A DNA stretch of 64,000 bases from Allobosea sp. 47.2.35 (lineage in GTDB: Bacteria > Pseudomonadota > Alphaproteobacteria > Rhizobiales > Beijerinckiaceae). Shown here piece after piece: positions 38,826 to 47,389 of this stretch (positions are counted from its first letter, which is position 1; every line of letters begins with the position of its first letter). The DNA is taken from contig NZ_JANLGI010000003.1 in assembly GCF_024655635.1 (NCBI RefSeq), positions 186,001-250,000 of the forward strand, read 5' to 3'. The translations under genes and the position numbers were made by a program. Below the pieces are notes generated by a model that was not told where the DNA came from, ran no database searches, and was given only the letters and a program-made list of their open reading frames with translations.

Positions 38826-39647
38826 ATGACCTTCGAAGACACCATCGGCCGCTCGCGTTCGCGCGAGCCCGCCATCAAGATTCACGGCCCCGAGGCCTTC
38901 GCGGCCATGCACAAGGCCGGCCGGCTGACGGCTGCCGGCCTCGACATGCTCGGGTCCTACGTCAAGCCCGGCGTCACCACGCAGCGCCTCGACGACCTCG
39001 CCTTCCAGTTCGCCATGGATAACGGCGCCTATCCGGCGACGCTGTTCTATCGCGGCTACACCAAGTCGATCTGCACCTCGATCAACCATGTCGTCTGTCA
39101 CGGCATTCCCGACGACAAGCCGCTGCGCGAGGGCGATGTCGTCAATATCGACTACACGCTGATCGTCGATGGCTGGCACGGCGATTCCAGCCGCATGTAC
39201 GGCGTCGGCGAAATCTCGCGGAAGGCCGAGCGCCTGATCGAGATCACCTATGAAAGCCTGCAGCGCGGCATCAAGGCGGTGCGCGCCGGCGCGACCACCG
39301 GCGATATCGGCTTCGCCATCCAGCGCTATGCCGAGGCAGAGCGCTGCTCGGTGGTGCGCGATTTCTGCGGCCACGGCATCGGCCAGCTCTTCCACGACGC
39401 CCCGAACATCCTCCATTACGGCAGCCCGGGCGAAGGCGTTCTGCTGAAGCCCGGCATGGTCTTCACCATCGAGCCGATGATCAATCTCGGCAAGGCGGGC
39501 GTGAAGGTGCTCTCGGACGGCTGGACCGCCGTGACTCGCGACCGGTCGCTCTCCGCACAGTTCGAGCATCAGATCGGCGTCACCGAGCAGGGCTGCGAGA
39601 TCTTCACGCTCTCTCCCGCCGGCCTCGGCAATCCGCTCGCGAAATGA
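38826..39647 (+). CDS. map: Type I methionine aminopeptidase
   Basis: This 273-aa metalloenzyme removes the N-terminal Met from nascent proteins. The metal ligands are in [22 protein letters not shown] (two Asp), [13 protein letters not shown] (His), [10 protein letters not shown] (Glu) and [10 protein letters not shown] (Glu). The catalytic His lies in [11 protein letters not shown]. It is the type Ia form, without an N-terminal zinc-finger extension. The start is the ATG at 38826, 22 residues before the conserved [10 protein letters not shown]. Its stop overlaps the radC start by 4 bp. Confidence 0.95.
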
Positions 39648-40381
39648 GCGCGGGCATCGGCAAGGGATCGCGAAAGGCGCCCTCGCCGGCCACCCCTGCC
39701 GACTCCGACACGCCGCATTACCACGGCCACCGCGACCGCCTGCGCACCCGCTTCCGGGAAGCCGGTGCCGAGACGCTGCCGGATTACGAATTGCTGGAGC
39801 TGCTGCTCTTTCGATCGATCCCGCGGCGCGACGTCAAGCCGCTCGCCAAGGAGCTGATCCAGCGCTTCGGCTCCTTCGCCGAAGTGCTTGGCGCCCCCGC
39901 CGCACGTCTCGCAGAGATCGACGGCGTCAGCGAAACCGTCGCACTCGACCTCAAGGTCGTCGAAGCCTCCCTGAAGCGCATGGCCAAGGGCGCGGTCGGC
40001 AAGCGGCCGGTCCTCTCCTCCTGGTCCTCGGTGCTCGATTATTGCCGGATGGCGATGGCTTTCGCCGAGCGCGAGCAGTTCCGCATCCTCTTCCTCGACA
40101 AGAAGAACATCCTGATCGCCGACGAGGTCCAGCAGACCGGCACGGTCGACCACACCCCGGTCTATCCGCGCGAGGTGATGCGCCGCGCGCTTGAACTCTC
40201 GGCCTCCGCGATCATCCTCGTCCACAACCACCCTTCCGGCGACCCGACGCCGTCCGGTGCCGACATGCGGATGACGCGCGAGCTCGTCGACATCGCCAAG
40301 CCCCTGGGCGTTGCCATCCATGACCACATCATCGTCGGCCGCGACGGCCATGCCAGCTTCCGCAGCCTCGGACTGATCTGA
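39644..40381 (+). CDS. radC: RadC/JAB-domain DNA repair family protein
   Basis: The 245-aa protein has an N-terminal helix-hairpin-helix-like part (about residues 20-100, [36 protein letters not shown]) and a JAB1/MPN metalloprotease-fold domain with [32 protein letters not shown], where HxH and the downstream Asp are the zinc ligands. The family name comes from a disputed E. coli radiation phenotype; its role is unknown. It overlaps map by ATGA and is followed by DUF488 with a 1-bp overlap, so the three genes form one operon. Confidence 0.9.
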
Positions 40382-40743
40382 TGACGCAACTCACGGTGAA
40401 GCGCGTCTACGATTCCCCCGCCCCCGCCCCCGGCGACGGCACGCGCATCCTCGTCGATAGGCTCTGGCCGCGCGGCGTGTCGAAGGACAAGATCGACCTC
40501 TGGCTCAAGGACCTCGCGCCGAGCGATGCGCTGCGCCACGAATTCCACGGCCATCCCGACCGCTGGGACGAGTTCCGCGCCGCCTATGCGACAGAGCTTG
40601 GCAGCCCGTCGGCGCAGTCGGCTCTCGCAGCCCTCGACGCCGAACGCAGGAAGGGCCCGGTAGCCCTGCTCTACGCCGCCAGGGACGAGAATCGGAACAA
40701 TGCGCTGGCCCTGCGCCTATGGCTGGACGGCCGCCCGAATTAG
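40381..40743 (+). CDS. DUF488 family protein
   Basis: The 120-aa protein has the DUF488 pattern: VKRVYDSPAPAPGDGTRILVDRLWPRGVSKDKI, LKDLAPSDALRHEFHGHPDRWDEFRA and VALLYAARDENRNNALAL. Some members are related to uracil-DNA glycosylase-like or SSB-linked repair proteins, but function is not settled. The start codon shares a base with the radC stop (tgatg), implying translational coupling. A small hairpin and a 219-bp non-coding stretch follow. Confidence 0.85.
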   Translation: MTQLTVKRVYDSPAPAPGDGTRILVDRLWPRGVSKDKIDLWLKDLAPSDALRHEFHGHPDRWDEFRAAYATELGSPSAQSALAALDAERRKGPVALLYAARDENRNNALALRLWLDGRPN

Positions 40744-40962: not shown

Positions 40963-42378
40963 ATGGTCGCATTCGATGAAATGACCGGTTCGGGCGCCGA
41001 GCTGAGGCCTGCCTACGAGGCTCTGGATCGCTGGCTGAAGGAAGCGCCGCCCGAAATGCTGGCGCTCAGGCGCAGCCAGGCGGAGCTGTTCTTCCGCCGC
41101 ATCGGCATCACCTTCGCGGTCTATGGCGACGAGGAATCGACCGAGCGCCTGATCCCCTTCGACATCATTCCGCGCGTGCTGACCAAGCCGGAATGGACCA
41201 AGCTGGAAGCGGGCCTGCGCCAGCGCGTCACCGCCCTCAACATGTTCCTGGCCGATGTCTACGGCCCCAAGGAATGCCTGAAGGCCGGCATCATCCCGCC
41301 CGACCTGGTCTATCGCAACGCCTGCTACCAGCTCGAAATGGTCGACTTCAAGGTCCCGCACGACATCTACTGCCATATCGCCGGCATCGATGTGGTGCGC
41401 GTCGACGCCGATACCTTCTACGTGCTTGAGGACAATGCCCGCACGCCCTCCGGCGTCTCCTACATGATGGAGAACCGCGAGGTAATGCTGCGGCTCTTCC
41501 CGGAGCTGTTCTCGACGCATCGCGTCGCGCCGGTCGACAACTACCCGGACCAGCTGCTGGCGACCCTGCGCTCGGTCGCGCCGCGAAGCGCCTCGTCGGA
41601 CCCGACGATCTGCCTGCTCACGCCCGGCCAGTACAACTCGGCCTTCTACGAGCACTCGTTCCTGGCCGACAAGCTCGGCGTCGAGCTGGTCGAGGGCTCG
41701 GACCTGCTGGTCAAGGACGATGTCGTCTACATGCGCACGACCCAGGGGCCGAAGCGCGTCGACGTGATCTACCGGCGCATCGACGACGACTTCATCGATC
41801 CGCTCGCCTTCCGCAGCGATTCCGTGCTCGGCGTCCCCGGCATCATCGGCGCCTACAAGGCCGGCAACGTCACGCTGGCGAACGCGGTCGGCACCGGCGT
41901 CGCCGACGACAAGGCGGTCTATAGCTACATGCCTGAGATCGTGAAGTTCTTCACCGGCGAGGAGCCGATCCTGAAGAACGTCCCGACCTACAGGTGCCGC
42001 GAGCCCGAGGCCAATGCCTATGTGCTCGACAATCTGGAGAAGCTCGTCGTCAAGGAGGTCAACGGCTCCGGCGGCTACGGCATGCTCGTCGGCCCGCACG
42101 CCAACAAGGCGCAGATCGAGACCTTCCGGCGCAAGCTCAAGGCCCAACCCGAGGGCTTCATCGCGCAGCCGACCCTGGCGCTCTCGACCTGCCCGACCTT
42201 CGTCGCCTCGGGCGTTGCGCCACGCCATGTCGACCTGCGCCCCTATGTGCTCTCGGGCGCCAATGGCATCTCCTGCGTGCCCGGTGGACTGACGCGCGTC
42301 GCGCTCAAGGAAGGTTCGCTCGTCGTCAATTCCAGCCAGGGCGGCGGCACCAAGGATACCTGGGTGCTCGACGCATGA
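40963..42378 (+). CDS. Circularly permuted type 2 ATP-grasp protein
   Basis: The 471-aa protein belongs to the COG2308 group (DUF404/DUF407), with RIGITFAVYGDEESTERLIPFD, NACYQLEMVDFKVP, VLEDNARTPSGVSYMMENREVMLRLFPELF and a C-terminal EKLVVKEVNGSGGYGMLVGPHA that supplies the ATP-grasp lysine and glycine-rich loop. Such enzymes join amino acids or peptides through acyl-phosphate chemistry, and family work on amidoligases predicts peptide tagging or synthesis by this operon. It is the first gene of a four-gene unit; the next start follows 73 bp after its stop. Confidence 0.88.
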   Translation: MVAFDEMTGSGAELRPAYEALDRWLKEAPPEMLALRRSQAELFFRRIGITFAVYGDEESTERLIPFDIIPRVLTKPEWTKLEAGLRQRVTALNMFLADVYGPKECLKAGIIPPDLVYRNACYQLEMVDFKVPHDIYCHIAGIDVVRVDADTFYVLEDNARTPSGVSYMMENREVMLRLFPELFSTHRVAPVDNYPDQLLATLRSVAPRSASSDPTICLLTPGQYNSAFYEHSFLADKLGVELVEGSDLLVKDDVVYMRTTQGPKRVDVIYRRIDDDFIDPLAFRSDSVLGVPGIIGAYKAGNVTLANAVGTGVADDKAVYSYMPEIVKFFTGEEPILKNVPTYRCREPEANAYVLDNLEKLVVKEVNGSGGYGMLVGPHANKAQIETFRRKLKAQPEGFIAQPTLALSTCPTFVASGVAPRHVDLRPYVLSGANGISCVPGGLTRVALKEGSLVVNSSQGGGTKDTWVLDA

Positions 42379-42451
42379 GCATCCCGGCCACCCCCTCGCC
42401 AGCCCTTCCCCCGCAACAGCCTGCCATCCCGCGGAAAGGCACACGCTGATC

Positions 42452-43393
42452 ATGCTTTCGCGTACCGCAGATAGCCTCTACTGGGTTTCCCGCTATGTCG
42501 AGCGGGCCGAATATCTCGCCCGCATCCTCGACGCGACGACGCGCCTCACCAACCTGCCGACCACCTATGGCGGCGCCGGCACGGAATGGCAGAGCGCGGT
42601 CCTGACTGCCGGCTGCGAGGAGGCCTTCGCCAAGGCCTATGGCGAGGCCAATGAACGCAATGTCTGCGACTTCCTGACCTTCAGTCCCGACAACCCGTCC
42701 TCGATCCGCAACTGCCTCGCCCAGGCCCGCTCGAACGCCCGAGCCGTGCGCACCGCGCTGACCTCGGAGATGTGGGATGCGCTGAATGGCGCCTGGCTGG
42801 AGCTGCAGCGCTTCGAGAAGAAGCGCATGGACCGCGAGGAATTCGCGCGCTTTCTCGACTGGGTGAAGAACGTCTCGCTGGTCTTCGACGGCTCGGCCTA
42901 CCGGACGATGCTGCGCGACGACAGCTACTGGTTCTCGCGGCTCGGCGTCTATCTCGAACGCGCCGACAACACCGCCCGCATCCTCGACGTGAAATACCAT
43001 GTCCTGCTGCCGGCCGATGAGCAGGTCGGCGGCTCGCTCGACTATTTCCAGTGGACCACGGTGCTGCGCGAGGTCTCGGCGCTCACCGCCTATCACTGGG
43101 TCTACCGCGAGGCGGTGAAGCCGATCCTCGTCGCCGACCTCCTGGTGCTGAACCGGCGCATGCCACGCTCGCTCGCAGCCTGCTACGAGAGCATCTCGCG
43201 CTTCCTCGATTCGCTCGGCGATGCCTATGGCCGCCAGGGGCCGGCCCAGCGTCAGGCCCGCAAGACGCTTGCCAATCTCAGCAATACGCGGATCGACGAC
43301 GTCTTCGTGCACGGGCTGCATGAATTCATCGAGGAGTTCATCACCGAGAACAACCGCCTCGGCAACACCATCTTCGAGCAGTATCTGCAATGA
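42452..43393 (+). CDS. Alpha-E domain protein
   Basis: The 313-aa, largely alpha-helical protein opens MLSRTADSLYWVSRYVERAEYLARILD, the hallmark of the alpha-E family, and includes LVFDGSAYRTMLRDDSYWFSRLGVYLERADNTARILDVKYH. It always accompanies the permuted ATP-grasp protein and transglutaminase in alphaproteobacteria. Its role is unsolved; a scaffold or co-ligase function is often proposed. It is the second gene of the operon. Confidence 0.88.
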   Translation: MLSRTADSLYWVSRYVERAEYLARILDATTRLTNLPTTYGGAGTEWQSAVLTAGCEEAFAKAYGEANERNVCDFLTFSPDNPSSIRNCLAQARSNARAVRTALTSEMWDALNGAWLELQRFEKKRMDREEFARFLDWVKNVSLVFDGSAYRTMLRDDSYWFSRLGVYLERADNTARILDVKYHVLLPADEQVGGSLDYFQWTTVLREVSALTAYHWVYREAVKPILVADLLVLNRRMPRSLAACYESISRFLDSLGDAYGRQGPAQRQARKTLANLSNTRIDDVFVHGLHEFIEEFITENNRLGNTIFEQYLQ

Positions 43394-43447
43394 GCCGCTC
43401 GCGCATGCTCGCCGTGCGACTGCCGTAACCCTGCCCCGGACTGGATC

Positions 43448-44275
43448 ATGCGGATCAGGATTTCCCATACGATCGGCTACGACTATGCCGAGCCGGCCCG
43501 CCATATCACGCAGATCCTGCGGCTGACGCCGCGCGACCATGACGGCCAGCACGTCATGTCCTGGCGCATCGAGCCGAATGTCGACGGCCGCCTGCGCGCC
43601 TCGCAGGATGCCCATGGCAATATCGTGCACTCATTCTATGCCGACGGGCCGATCTCCTCGCTCGCCATCCGCATCGACGGCCTGATCGAGACCATTGACC
43701 TCGCCGGCGCCGTCCGCGGCGGGCTGGAGCGCGTGCCCTGCGAGGTCTATTGCCGCGACACGCTCCTGACGGAGCAGGACGAAGCCCTGCGCAGCTTCGC
43801 CGAGGAGGTCACGGCCGGCGCCGGCACGCCGCTCTCGCGCATGCATGCTTTGATGAACGCTGTCAGTGACCGCATCGATTGCGTCGAGGCCAGCGGACGC
43901 ACCGGCGTCGGCGCGGCCGCGGCCTTCGCGGCACGCGAGGCGATCGCGCAGGACGTCGCTCATGTCTTCATGGCCTGCGCCCGCCATCTCGGCCTGCCCG
44001 CACGCTATGTCTCGGGCTATGTCGCGCAGTCCGACAGCCTGCCGCATGGCAACGGCGCCCATGCCTGGGCCGAAGTCCATCTCGACGACTATGGCTGGAT
44101 CGGCTTCGACTGCGCCAATGCGCTGTGCCCGATCGACACGCATGTGCGGGTTGCGATAGGGCTCGACTACGCGGATGCCGCACCTGTCCGCGGCTCGCGC
44201 CAGGGCGGCGAAGGCGAGAACCTCAACGTGCTCGTCAGCGCCCGCGAGACCGAAGGCCGCGGCGCCAACCAGTAA
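43448..44275 (+). CDS. Transglutaminase-like (SLT-like cysteine protease) family protein
   Basis: The 275-aa protein has an N-terminal beta domain (about residues 1-90, IRISHTIGYDYAEPARHITQILRL) and a transglutaminase core. The catalytic His is in GNGAHAWAEVHLDDYGWIGFDCANA, with the Asp in the following strand. The expected Cys region reads EAIAQDVAHVFMACARHLGLPARYVSGY, where the usual catalytic Cys position (GVCxDxA/ HxF) shows QDVAHVF, so the nucleophile is unclear. It may cleave or form amide bonds on the operon's product. It is the third gene, 54 bp after alpha-E. Confidence 0.85.
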   Translation: MRIRISHTIGYDYAEPARHITQILRLTPRDHDGQHVMSWRIEPNVDGRLRASQDAHGNIVHSFYADGPISSLAIRIDGLIETIDLAGAVRGGLERVPCEVYCRDTLLTEQDEALRSFAEEVTAGAGTPLSRMHALMNAVSDRIDCVEASGRTGVGAAAAFAAREAIAQDVAHVFMACARHLGLPARYVSGYVAQSDSLPHGNGAHAWAEVHLDDYGWIGFDCANALCPIDTHVRVAIGLDYADAAPVRGSRQGGEGENLNVLVSARETEGRGANQ

Positions 44276-44322
44276 CAGCCGCCCCTACAGCGGGCATGGC
44301 CAGGAAGACAGGGACCGAACCC

Positions 44323-45072
44323 GTGACTTATTGCGCCGGAATCCTCGTGCAGGACGGGCTCGTCATGATCGCCGACACCCGCACCAATGCCGGGCTCGAC
44401 GACATCTCGACCTTCCGCAAGCTCCATGTCTTCAACTGGCCGGGCGACCGCAATTTCGGCCTGATGACAGCCGGGAACCTCTCGATCACCCAGTCGGTGG
44501 TGAGCTTCCTCCACGAGGGACTGCCCAATCCCGATACCGGCGAGCTCGATACGCTGCAGAACGCCAGCTCGATGTTCAGGGCAGCCCAGCTCGTCGGCCG
44601 CTGCATTCGCCATGTCCGCGACATCGACGGCCCGGCGCTGGAGGATGCCGGCGTCAAGTTCGAGATCGGCATGTTGTTCGGCGGCCAGATCAAGGGGCAG
44701 CCGATGCGCCTGTTCATGGTCTACAGCGCCGGCAACTTCATCGAATGCGGGATCGACTCACCGTTCCTGCAGATCGGCGAGCACAAATACGGCAAGCCGA
44801 TCCTCGACCGCGCCGTCACCTTCAAGACCCATCTCTACGATGCACTCAAGGTCGGGCTGATCTCGATGGATTCGACCATGCGCTCGAATCTCGGCGTCGG
44901 CCTGCCGATCGATCTGGTCGTGATCCGGCGTGACGCCGACGATTTCGAGCTCAACCGCCGGATCGAGGCGGGCGAACCCTATTTCCACGACCTGCGCGAA
45001 CGCTGGTCTGCCGCGCTTAGGGCGGCCCATATGGCGATACCGCGCCCGCCCTACGGGCCATCTGGGACTTGA
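44323..45072 (+). CDS. Anbu (ancestral beta subunit) proteasome-like N-terminal nucleophile hydrolase
   Basis: The 249-aa protein is a proteasome/HslV-fold peptidase homologue of the Anbu type. I place the start at the GTG at 44323, preceded by aggga 8 nt upstream, because Met-Thr removal then leaves Thr1 in TYCAGILVQDGLVMIADTRT. Counted from that Thr, Asp17 and Lys32 fall exactly where the proteasome-type catalytic residues lie (IAD17 and FRK32). An ATG at 44296 would add nine residues and bury Thr1. It is the last gene of the ATP-grasp operon and may degrade the peptide made by it. Stop at 45072. Confidence 0.87.
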   Translation: MTYCAGILVQDGLVMIADTRTNAGLDDISTFRKLHVFNWPGDRNFGLMTAGNLSITQSVVSFLHEGLPNPDTGELDTLQNASSMFRAAQLVGRCIRHVRDIDGPALEDAGVKFEIGMLFGGQIKGQPMRLFMVYSAGNFIECGIDSPFLQIGEHKYGKPILDRAVTFKTHLYDALKVGLISMDSTMRSNLGVGLPIDLVVIRRDADDFELNRRIEAGEPYFHDLRERWSAALRAAHMAIPRPPYGPSGT

Positions 45073-45157: not shown

Positions 45158-47389
45158 ATGCCCTTGCCCACCGCCGCGAAGATGACGAATGCGGGCTCCT
45201 CCGCTCGCATGTTCGCGAGCACGGTGGTCACGCTGGGCTGCGCCTTCCTGCTGCTCATGGCCGCCGGGATCGGCGTCGTCGTCGCGATCACCCGCGAAGC
45301 CAATCGTCTTGAGGCGCAACGTCAGGCCGAACGAATCGAAGCCGCCATCAACGGACAGATCAAGCTGAGCGAATTGAGGCTCGAGCGCCTCGTCGCGGCC
45401 GGCGACCTGCCCGAAGCCTTGCAGCAGCCCGGCGTGACCAACGCCGTGCTTCAAGCCGCCCTCAAGCGCCTGAGCGGCCAGCTGATGGATTTCGACGGCG
45501 CCTATATCGGGGGGACCGGCAGCTCCGTCCTGGCCTGGGTCGAGAACCCGGCCGTGGCGGATCACGGCAACACTGACGGCCCGCACCATATCGAGGCCTT
45601 GCAGCGCGGCGCGAAGAGCTCCTTCGTCGCGGCCGTGATCGGCGACGAGGTCACGCCCCAGTTCGGCGCGGCCCGCTCCACCGTCATCACCGATGGTGGG
45701 GAGACGCTGATCCTGACCGTGATCGACCTTACGCGCATCGCCTCGTTCAGCTCCGACAGCGGCCCGGCGCCCGTCTCCTTCGTTGCCTACCGCCATCTGT
45801 CCAGCGCCCTGATGTCGGACCTCGCCGAACGCAACCGCATCGTCGATATCCAGCTCGCCACCACACAGCCGGCAGACCCGGTGTCGAAACTCGGCCTGCG
45901 CGCCGCCGACGGCAAGATCGGCGCCTGGCTGACCTGGTCGCCGGCACGCCCCGGCGACGTCATGCTGCGCCGCTTCCTCTGGGCGCTGATCGCCGTCGCG
46001 CTGCTGTTCTCGGCGATCTTCGTCTTCGTCGTGCAGCGCCTGCGTTCATCCGCCGAGCAGATCGAGCTCCGCGAGCGCCAGATCCAGCGCCTCGCCGGGC
46101 AGGACGAACTCTCCCTGCTGCCGAACCGCCGCAGCTTCGACCTGACGCTCGACCAGACGCTCGCCCATATCCATGATGACGGCCCGAGCCTCGCCGTGCT
46201 GCTGATCGACCTCGATCGCTTCAAGGCCGTTAACGACACCTATGGCCACACCGCCGGCGACGAGCTCATCCGCCAGGTCGCGGTCCGCCTGTCCGGCGCG
46301 GTTCAGGTCGGCGACACCGTGGCACGCCTCGGCGGCGACGAGTTCGGCATCATCCAGACCCATTCCGCGACGCCGGCCGGCTGCGCCGCGCTCGGCGAGC
46401 GCATCCTCGCCAGCCTCTCCGAGCCGTTCAGCATCACCGGCGCCGAGGTCACGATCGGCTCCTCGATCGGCATCGCCATGGCGCCGCGTGACGGCATCAG
46501 CCGCGAGGCCCTGCTCAAGCTCGCCGATACCGCGCTCTATGAAGCCAAGAACAGCGGCCGTAACCGCTATGCCTTCTTCGAGTCGCAGATGAACCGCTCG
46601 ATGCAGCTGAAGCGGATGGTCGAGGACGATCTGCGCCACGCCATCGATAACGACCAGCTGATGCTGCACTACCAGCCTCAGGTTTCCGTCGACGGCTCGA
46701 CCATCGTCGGCGTCGAGGCACTGGTGCGCTGGCAGCACCCGGCCCATGGCATGATCCCGCCCTCGGATTTCATCGCCATCGCCGAGGAACGCGGCCTGAT
46801 CGTGCCGCTCAGCGAATGGGTGCTGCGGCGCGCCTGCACCGAGGCCAAGCGCTGGAAGGGCGTCCGCCTCGCGGTCAACGTCTCGCCGATCCAGTTCCGC
46901 CACAAGGACTTCGTCGCCAACGTCATCCGCACCATCGAGGAGACGGATTTCGACCCGGCCCAGCTCGAGCTGGAACTCACCGAAGGCGTGCTGATCGAGG
47001 ATGCCGATGCGGCCGAAGCCGCGATGATGGACATCCGCGCCCATGGCGTCGGCCTTGCGCTCGACGATTTCGGCACCGGCTATTCGAGCTTGATCTATCT
47101 GCGCCGCTTCGCCTTCGACAAGATCAAGATCGACCGCTCCTTCCTCGAATACATGGAAGCGACGGGCGAATCCGCGATCCTCGTCCATTCGATGGCCCAT
47201 CTCGGGCGGGCGCTCGGCCTGCGGGTCTGTGCCGAGGGCGTCGAGACCGCCGAGCAGCACCGCTTCCTGCAAGCAATCGGCTGCCACGAATTGCAGGGCT
47301 TCCTGTTCTCCAAGGCGGTGCCCGCGAGCGAGATCGACCGCCTTCTCGGCCTCGACAATCCTTTCGCCGAAATCCTCGCCGCCGCCTGA
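45158..47389 (+). CDS. Membrane-bound GGDEF-EAL cyclic-di-GMP enzyme
   Basis: The 743-aa protein has a transmembrane helix at about residues 25-46, a periplasmic sensor region to about 268 that resembles CHASE4 in position, a second helix at about 270-292 and then GGDEF (about 310-470) and EAL (about 490-735) domains. GGDEF is intact (ARLGGDEFGII), but the I-site RxxD reads QVGD, so product inhibition is probably lost. EAL is intact (GVEALVRW) together with LALDDFGTGYSSL and the DKIKIDRSF block. Bifunctional activity is possible; the dominant one cannot be told. It follows the Anbu gene but is separated by 85 bp with a palindrome. Confidence 0.9.
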   Translation: MPLPTAAKMTNAGSSARMFASTVVTLGCAFLLLMAAGIGVVVAITREANRLEAQRQAERIEAAINGQIKLSELRLERLVAAGDLPEALQQPGVTNAVLQAALKRLSGQLMDFDGAYIGGTGSSVLAWVENPAVADHGNTDGPHHIEALQRGAKSSFVAAVIGDEVTPQFGAARSTVITDGGETLILTVIDLTRIASFSSDSGPAPVSFVAYRHLSSALMSDLAERNRIVDIQLATTQPADPVSKLGLRAADGKIGAWLTWSPARPGDVMLRRFLWALIAVALLFSAIFVFVVQRLRSSAEQIELRERQIQRLAGQDELSLLPNRRSFDLTLDQTLAHIHDDGPSLAVLLIDLDRFKAVNDTYGHTAGDELIRQVAVRLSGAVQVGDTVARLGGDEFGIIQTHSATPAGCAALGERILASLSEPFSITGAEVTIGSSIGIAMAPRDGISREALLKLADTALYEAKNSGRNRYAFFESQMNRSMQLKRMVEDDLRHAIDNDQLMLHYQPQVSVDGSTIVGVEALVRWQHPAHGMIPPSDFIAIAEERGLIVPLSEWVLRRACTEAKRWKGVRLAVNVSPIQFRHKDFVANVIRTIEETDFDPAQLELELTEGVLIEDADAAEAAMMDIRAHGVGLALDDFGTGYSSLIYLRRFAFDKIKIDRSFLEYMEATGESAILVHSMAHLGRALGLRVCAEGVETAEQHRFLQAIGCHELQGFLFSKAVPASEIDRLLGLDNPFAEILAAA

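Follow-up and report, generated by a model that had tools for sequence, protein, structure and literature searches.

Recurrent loss of the catalytic cysteine from the transglutaminase-like protein of a conserved Anbu operon, and its co-occurrence with a second operon

Why would a conserved operon retain a transglutaminase-like protein without its catalytic cysteine? This question is raised by four genes on the forward strand of a 64,000-nucleotide stretch of DNA from Allobosea sp. 47.2.35 (contig NZ_JANLGI010000003.1), referred to as the window in the following. In this order, the genes encode a circularly permuted ATP-grasp protein (CP_ATPgrasp_1/2; positions 40963..42378), which is a predicted amide-bond ligase, an Alpha-E (DUF403) protein (42452..43393), a transglutaminase-like protein (TG, P0003; 43448..44275), and the proteasome-like Ntn hydrolase Anbu (44323..45072). 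The intergenic gaps measure 73, 54, and 47 bp, so that the four same-strand genes with 47-73 bp spacing given in a preliminary description of this DNA are indeed present. The family identities given there are borne out as well: the ATP-grasp protein contains a CP_ATPgrasp domain (Pfam CP_ATPgrasp_2, E=3e-165; PDB sequence 3n6x, E=7e-197), the second protein matches Pfam Alpha-E (E=1.2e-96), the third combines Transglut_core (E=9.7e-23) and Bact_transglu_N with a predicted transglutaminase-like fold, and the fourth matches the solved Anbu chains 5loy, 5nyj, 5nyf, 5nyw, and 5lox, with E values down to 7e-81 (5loy). The Pfam Proteasome match of Anbu is weak (19.1 bits, below the cut-off of 22.4). 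Within Alpha-E, E17-R18 and E169-R170 are invariant in 39 aligned sequences; a comparison of this protein with PDB sequences gave no match at E 0.01, and none of the four proteins matched an NCBIfam family. The nearest relatives with organism names are mostly Bosea (best 80 of 321 matches).

The same four-gene operon has already been described in Yersinia bercovieri, Pseudomonas, and other bacteria, and the available portions of these reports show the same families, the same order, and the same Anbu catalytic residues as in the window (PMC6376114; PMC5666114). The ATP-grasp protein of the Yersinia operon released phosphate from ATP, according to the accessible text of PMC6376114, and published models, as far as their available text goes, assign a ligating or trimming job to the operon TG. 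The window differs from these operons in having Ala at the TG nucleophile position, a loss of which the same portions of PMC6376114 and PMC5666114 make no mention.

To see how far this arrangement (operon 1) extends, we collected 221 Anbu loci, consisting of the window, 80 loci with organism names, and 140 others. They were picked from search lists: the best 80 of 321 matches in one list, 80 of 95 matches besides the window, 40 new ones from a second list (which held 87 further genomes), and 20 from among the matches listed in another search. At least two genomes are represented twice, namely by L067/L174, whose proteins are identical in the tree described below, and L090/L097, which fit the same coordinates. 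At 186 of the 221 loci, ATP-grasp, Alpha-E, TG, and Anbu lie on one strand in that order, showing that the four genes do cluster in relatives, as the preliminary description expected of a single system. The examined stretch holds no TG at 22 of the loci. We searched the genomes of 13 of these and found a TG elsewhere in ten, five Cys-less and five with Cys; these ten are counted neither among the 199 operon TGs nor in the tree below. In three distant genomes, G177 (L204), G420 (L210), and G239 (L211), an alphaproteobacterial profile gave no TG match at E 1e-25, a search that a divergent TG could escape; their ATP-grasp, Alpha-E, and Anbu genes are near each other. For ten loci without the standard order, TG and Alpha-E are found together elsewhere in the genome. 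At five loci (L094, L095, L099, L100, and L143), operon 1 is rearranged such that the Anbu gene and the ATP-grasp/Alpha-E/TG block lie on opposite strands.

The proposed catalytic residues of Anbu are highly conserved. Thr1, Asp17, and Lys32 are kept in 220 of the 221 proteins, the remaining one carrying Ser1, and the Thr1 conservation that the preliminary description demanded is thus found. In the window, the GTG at 44323, directly before Thr1, appears best placed as the Anbu start, giving an N-terminal Met-Thr1. An in-frame ATG lies nine codons upstream, and five Bosea-type loci (L018, L024, L032, L035, and L042) have in-frame stops three or five codons before the same position. Among the 220 resolved loci, the codon preceding Thr1 (or Ser1) is ATG in 172, GTG in 32, and TTG in 16. 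The suggestion that Anbu degrades fares less well: the available portions of PMC6376114 and PMC5666114 report solved structures and assays in which no peptidase activity was detected, although Thr1 of the Pseudomonas protein bound proteasome inhibitors. Two genomes, G116 (L138 and L159) and G379, contain two Anbu genes each; in G116, one is part of a full operon and the other has no operon gene in the examined stretch.

We then turned to the TG. The preliminary description had noted a missing canonical Cys as a puzzle, and the alignment bears this out: the window protein reads E-A-I-A167-Q-D-V-A-H, with the Ala codon at 43946..43948, where 3isr, a transglutaminase-like putative cysteine protease from Cytophaga hutchinsonii with 19% identity to the window TG, reads R-A-G-V-C-R-D-F-A-H and the Cys-bearing orthologues likewise have Cys. 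His205 and Asp221 are kept. Of 199 operon TGs, 119 possess the complete Cys-His-Asp triad and 80 lack the Cys. All 40 Bosea-type TGs (the window and 39 relatives) are Cys-less, and the organism-named set leans toward such close relatives; outside the Bosea-type set, the Cys is missing from 40 of 159, and within the order of the window but outside the organism-named set from 20 of 94. All 26 TGs sampled outside this order have Cys. The 13 other loci named Methylobacterium are without exception Cys-less, and L105 and L177, which share their genus code, keep the residue.

A sequencing or assembly error was rejected as the source of the missing Cys, given that the residue is absent from 80 of the 199 TGs across many different genomes and assemblies. 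We also rejected a takeover by a second Cys, as 18 Cys-less representatives share no Cys at the 94% level, and a switch to a Ser nucleophile, with Ser found in just 6 of 80 proteins. Because the nucleophile is absent, the window TG is very probably unable to function as a transglutaminase or peptidase of the Cys type, even though it keeps its predicted fold and many conserved residues. The proposal that the transglutaminase trims or crosslinks is therefore unlikely to apply to this genome, and judged from the alignments the disarming of the operon TG is well supported.

Could the Cys-less protein nevertheless be an enzyme that uses another nucleophile, or metal or water chemistry on the retained residues? 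His205 and Asp221 are both present in 77 of the 80 Cys-less TGs (Asp221 is invariant and His205 reaches 94% in the 18 representatives), as such an enzyme would require, and the pair may still support some chemistry. However, Cys has given way to residues of differing chemistry (Ala in 28 proteins, Pro in 28, Gly in 15, Ser in 6, Val in 2, and Lys in 1), no other Cys is conserved among the representatives, and the His is replaced in three of the 80. We regard this explanation as very unlikely.

To estimate how often the Cys was lost, we built trees from ATP-grasp, Alpha-E, and Anbu, leaving out TG. A first tree of 138 rows, thinned by hand from 175 complete operons, requires 8 changes, at least 6 of them forced. 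After addition of new loci and removal of L186 and L209, the resulting 153-row tree, in which 49 rows are Cys-less, gave a minimum of 9 changes, and well-supported branches force 7 of these. A 47-row tree under a mixture model, its rows again thinned by hand, likewise needed 9 changes (9-10 across bootstraps), of which at least 7 are forced. Change counts alone cannot tell losses from regains; we infer losses since Cys is present in all rows sampled beyond the affected part of the tree. The TGs of L269 and L271 (genus g53), which are absent from the tree, are Cys-less and the g53 members L108 and L166 have Cys, which suggests one further loss beyond those in the tree.

Repeated loss could mean that the TG gene is decaying, a neutral relic in a conserved operon and heading for disappearance. 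In agreement with this, TG evolves faster than its neighbors, and relative to ATP-grasp faster still once the Cys is gone: dN(TG)/dN(ATP-grasp) is 4.08 for Cys-less and 2.31 for Cys-bearing pairs (two-sided p=5e-5 for 15 and 24 pairs, respectively), with a TG rate excess within the affected clade that is not significant against Alpha-E (one-sided p=0.051) or Anbu (0.18). The number of conserved positions is about halved (42 vs 81), and two genomes of genus g25 (L128 and L130) encode a TG that has lost His along with Cys and gained a long polar insert; their frame is open and the gene still lies in the operon. Against decay, all 80 Cys-less copies match over the full length, covering 252-297 residues compared with 252-288 for the Cys-bearing proteins; since frames were taken from stop to stop, split genes would have appeared as short matches. 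In 14 Cys-less pairs with dS <1.2, dN/dS of TG stays below 1 (median 0.25, maximum 0.63), and seven residues (W207, E209, D221, R186, R234, D240, and R248) are invariant across 37 sequences, the most degenerate ones (L128, L130, and L261) being left out. Moreover, the Cys-less state is shared by the entire Bosea-type set and by the 13 Methylobacterium loci mentioned above. These comparisons indicate that the Cys-less TG genes retain their full length and remain subject to purifying selection, albeit relaxed relative to ATP-grasp, and we consider ongoing decay unlikely.

As the TG in the lineage of the window lacks its Cys nucleophile, any TG step must come from a second operon, from another TG-fold protein of the genome, or be unneeded. 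The genome itself has seven Transglut_core matches, and its contig C44 (L008) carries a second operon (operon 2) for three proteins: a DUF2126-TG of 1133 aa, a fusion of ATP-grasp and Alpha-E of about 844 aa, and a TG containing the motif H-G-V-C-Q-D-F-A-H. Operon 2 shares the ATP-grasp, Alpha-E, and TG families with the window operon; it differs in lacking Anbu, in possessing an extra DUF2126 amidoligase, and in a TG that keeps its Cys. At all 22 operon-2 loci examined from Cys-less genomes, this TG contains GVCQDF.

We next asked whether operon 2 accompanies the Cys-less state. DUF2126 is present in 48 of the 49 Cys-less tree rows, compared with 41 of the 104 Cys-bearing rows. The one Cys-less genome without DUF2126, Alsobacter soli (L054), encodes both the fusion, at 57% identity, and an operon-2 TG with Cys, and was scored as operon-2 positive by these two genes only. 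Including such fusion evidence, the counts become 49 of 49 and 41 of 104, as tip counts that ignore kinship and in which L067 and L174 are one genome. The fusion search gave one match each in the 63 Cys-bearing DUF2126-negative genomes, with 28-37% identity, and wherever positions were compared this match was the operon-1 ATP-grasp. A four-state model that ties Cys loss to operon 2 is preferred over an independent one (LRT 11.2, p=0.0008; 22.2, p=2e-6 without regain), with a fitted loss rate of about zero without operon 2 and of 1.13 with it. Applied to the initial, smaller set of 134 rows, this test yielded p=0.14; a variant of it that has two additional parameters yielded p=0.0008.

The link could instead be a by-product of shared ancestry, genome size, or lifestyle and have nothing to do with functional back-up. 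An independent-pairs test was not significant, being underpowered with 7 pairs (on average, 2.9 agreeing in direction, 0.2 opposed, and 4.0 undecided), the sampled losses all fall within a single region of the tree in which operon 2 is common, and the dependence test took no account of genome size. These points fit a by-product; the fitted loss rate of about zero without operon 2 and the fact that none of the 49 Cys-less rows lacks operon 2 do not. We take a by-product to be a real, though not the favored, possibility. Because 41 Cys-bearing rows carry operon 2 as well, its presence is at most permissive, and the evidence for a back-up of the operon TG is suggestive.

Taken together, we consider it likely that the window contains the known Anbu system in a form that can do without TG catalysis when the second operon is present and that retains the TG as a non-catalytic partner. 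Based on the protein families, the ATP-grasp protein would make an amide bond with Alpha-E as its partner, and Anbu would cleave the amide through Thr1. The Cys-less TG would serve as a binding or scaffold partner for a substrate, a product, or another protein, and, going by the co-occurrence, loss of the Cys would be tolerated where operon 2 either performs the TG reaction itself or removes the need for it. A precedent for such a role is erythrocyte protein 4.2 (7uzs, 8csw), an inactive transglutaminase that serves as a scaffold; it is no close relative of the window TG. More tentatively, the TG could be a partner whose primary task is to bind a substrate or product throughout, its Cys chemistry being separable and shared with the DUF2126 operon. 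Both operons would then feed one pathway, and many alphaproteobacteria would have moved catalysis wholly to operon 2, leaving Anbu as the sole hydrolase of operon 1.

While the system itself is known, the recurrent disarming of a TG that is kept in its operon, and the tie to a second operon, are new. No title or abstract start in the literature searched reports a Cys loss from the TG of Anbu operons; this literature included the available portions of PMC6376114, PMC5666114, PMC8665760, PMC5491218, and PMC3597751, and the amidoligase survey of 2009 and the Vielberg paper of 2018 lay outside its scope. Repeated natural loss of the nucleophile from an operon that retains its other three proteins amounts to a genetic dissection by evolution, and it follows that the steps of Anbu, ATP-grasp, and Alpha-E can proceed without TG catalysis from the same operon. 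The one-sided link to operon 2 provides a concrete, testable partner for the Anbu pathway.

Published data hint at nitrogen limitation as the setting. In the accessible parts of the two reports, Anbu is upregulated in nitrogen-limited Pseudomonas putida (PMC5666114), and Burkholderia cenocepacia has an NtrC-dependent cluster of ATP-grasp, Alpha-E, and TG families, I35_5080-83 (PMC5491218). This cluster is perhaps the counterpart of operon 2, and its large TG protein is presumably of the DUF2126 type; in contrast to the fusion in operon 2, its ATP-grasp and Alpha-E genes are separate, as far as the available text of PMC5491218 describes them. Because NtrC control in Burkholderia suggested a sigma-54 promoter, we searched 400 and 800 bp upstream of both operons using a general sigma-54 consensus and found no site with 9/11 matches.

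The window operon is flanked downstream by a gene for a 743-aa protein, GGDEF-EAL type by eye (45158-47389), and upstream by one for a DUF488 protein (40381-40743), whose best Pfam match is the "inactive DUF488-N3 subclade". Further upstream, on the same strand, are genes for an M24 peptidase, a methionine aminopeptidase by sequence, and RadC (38829-40381). The M24 neighborhood is suggestive because exposure of Thr1 in Anbu needs removal of the start Met. Among 176 loci for which 1.8 kb or more of sequence was examined, both genes lie upstream of the operon at 57, from several families; under a stricter rule, they do so at 55 of 172.
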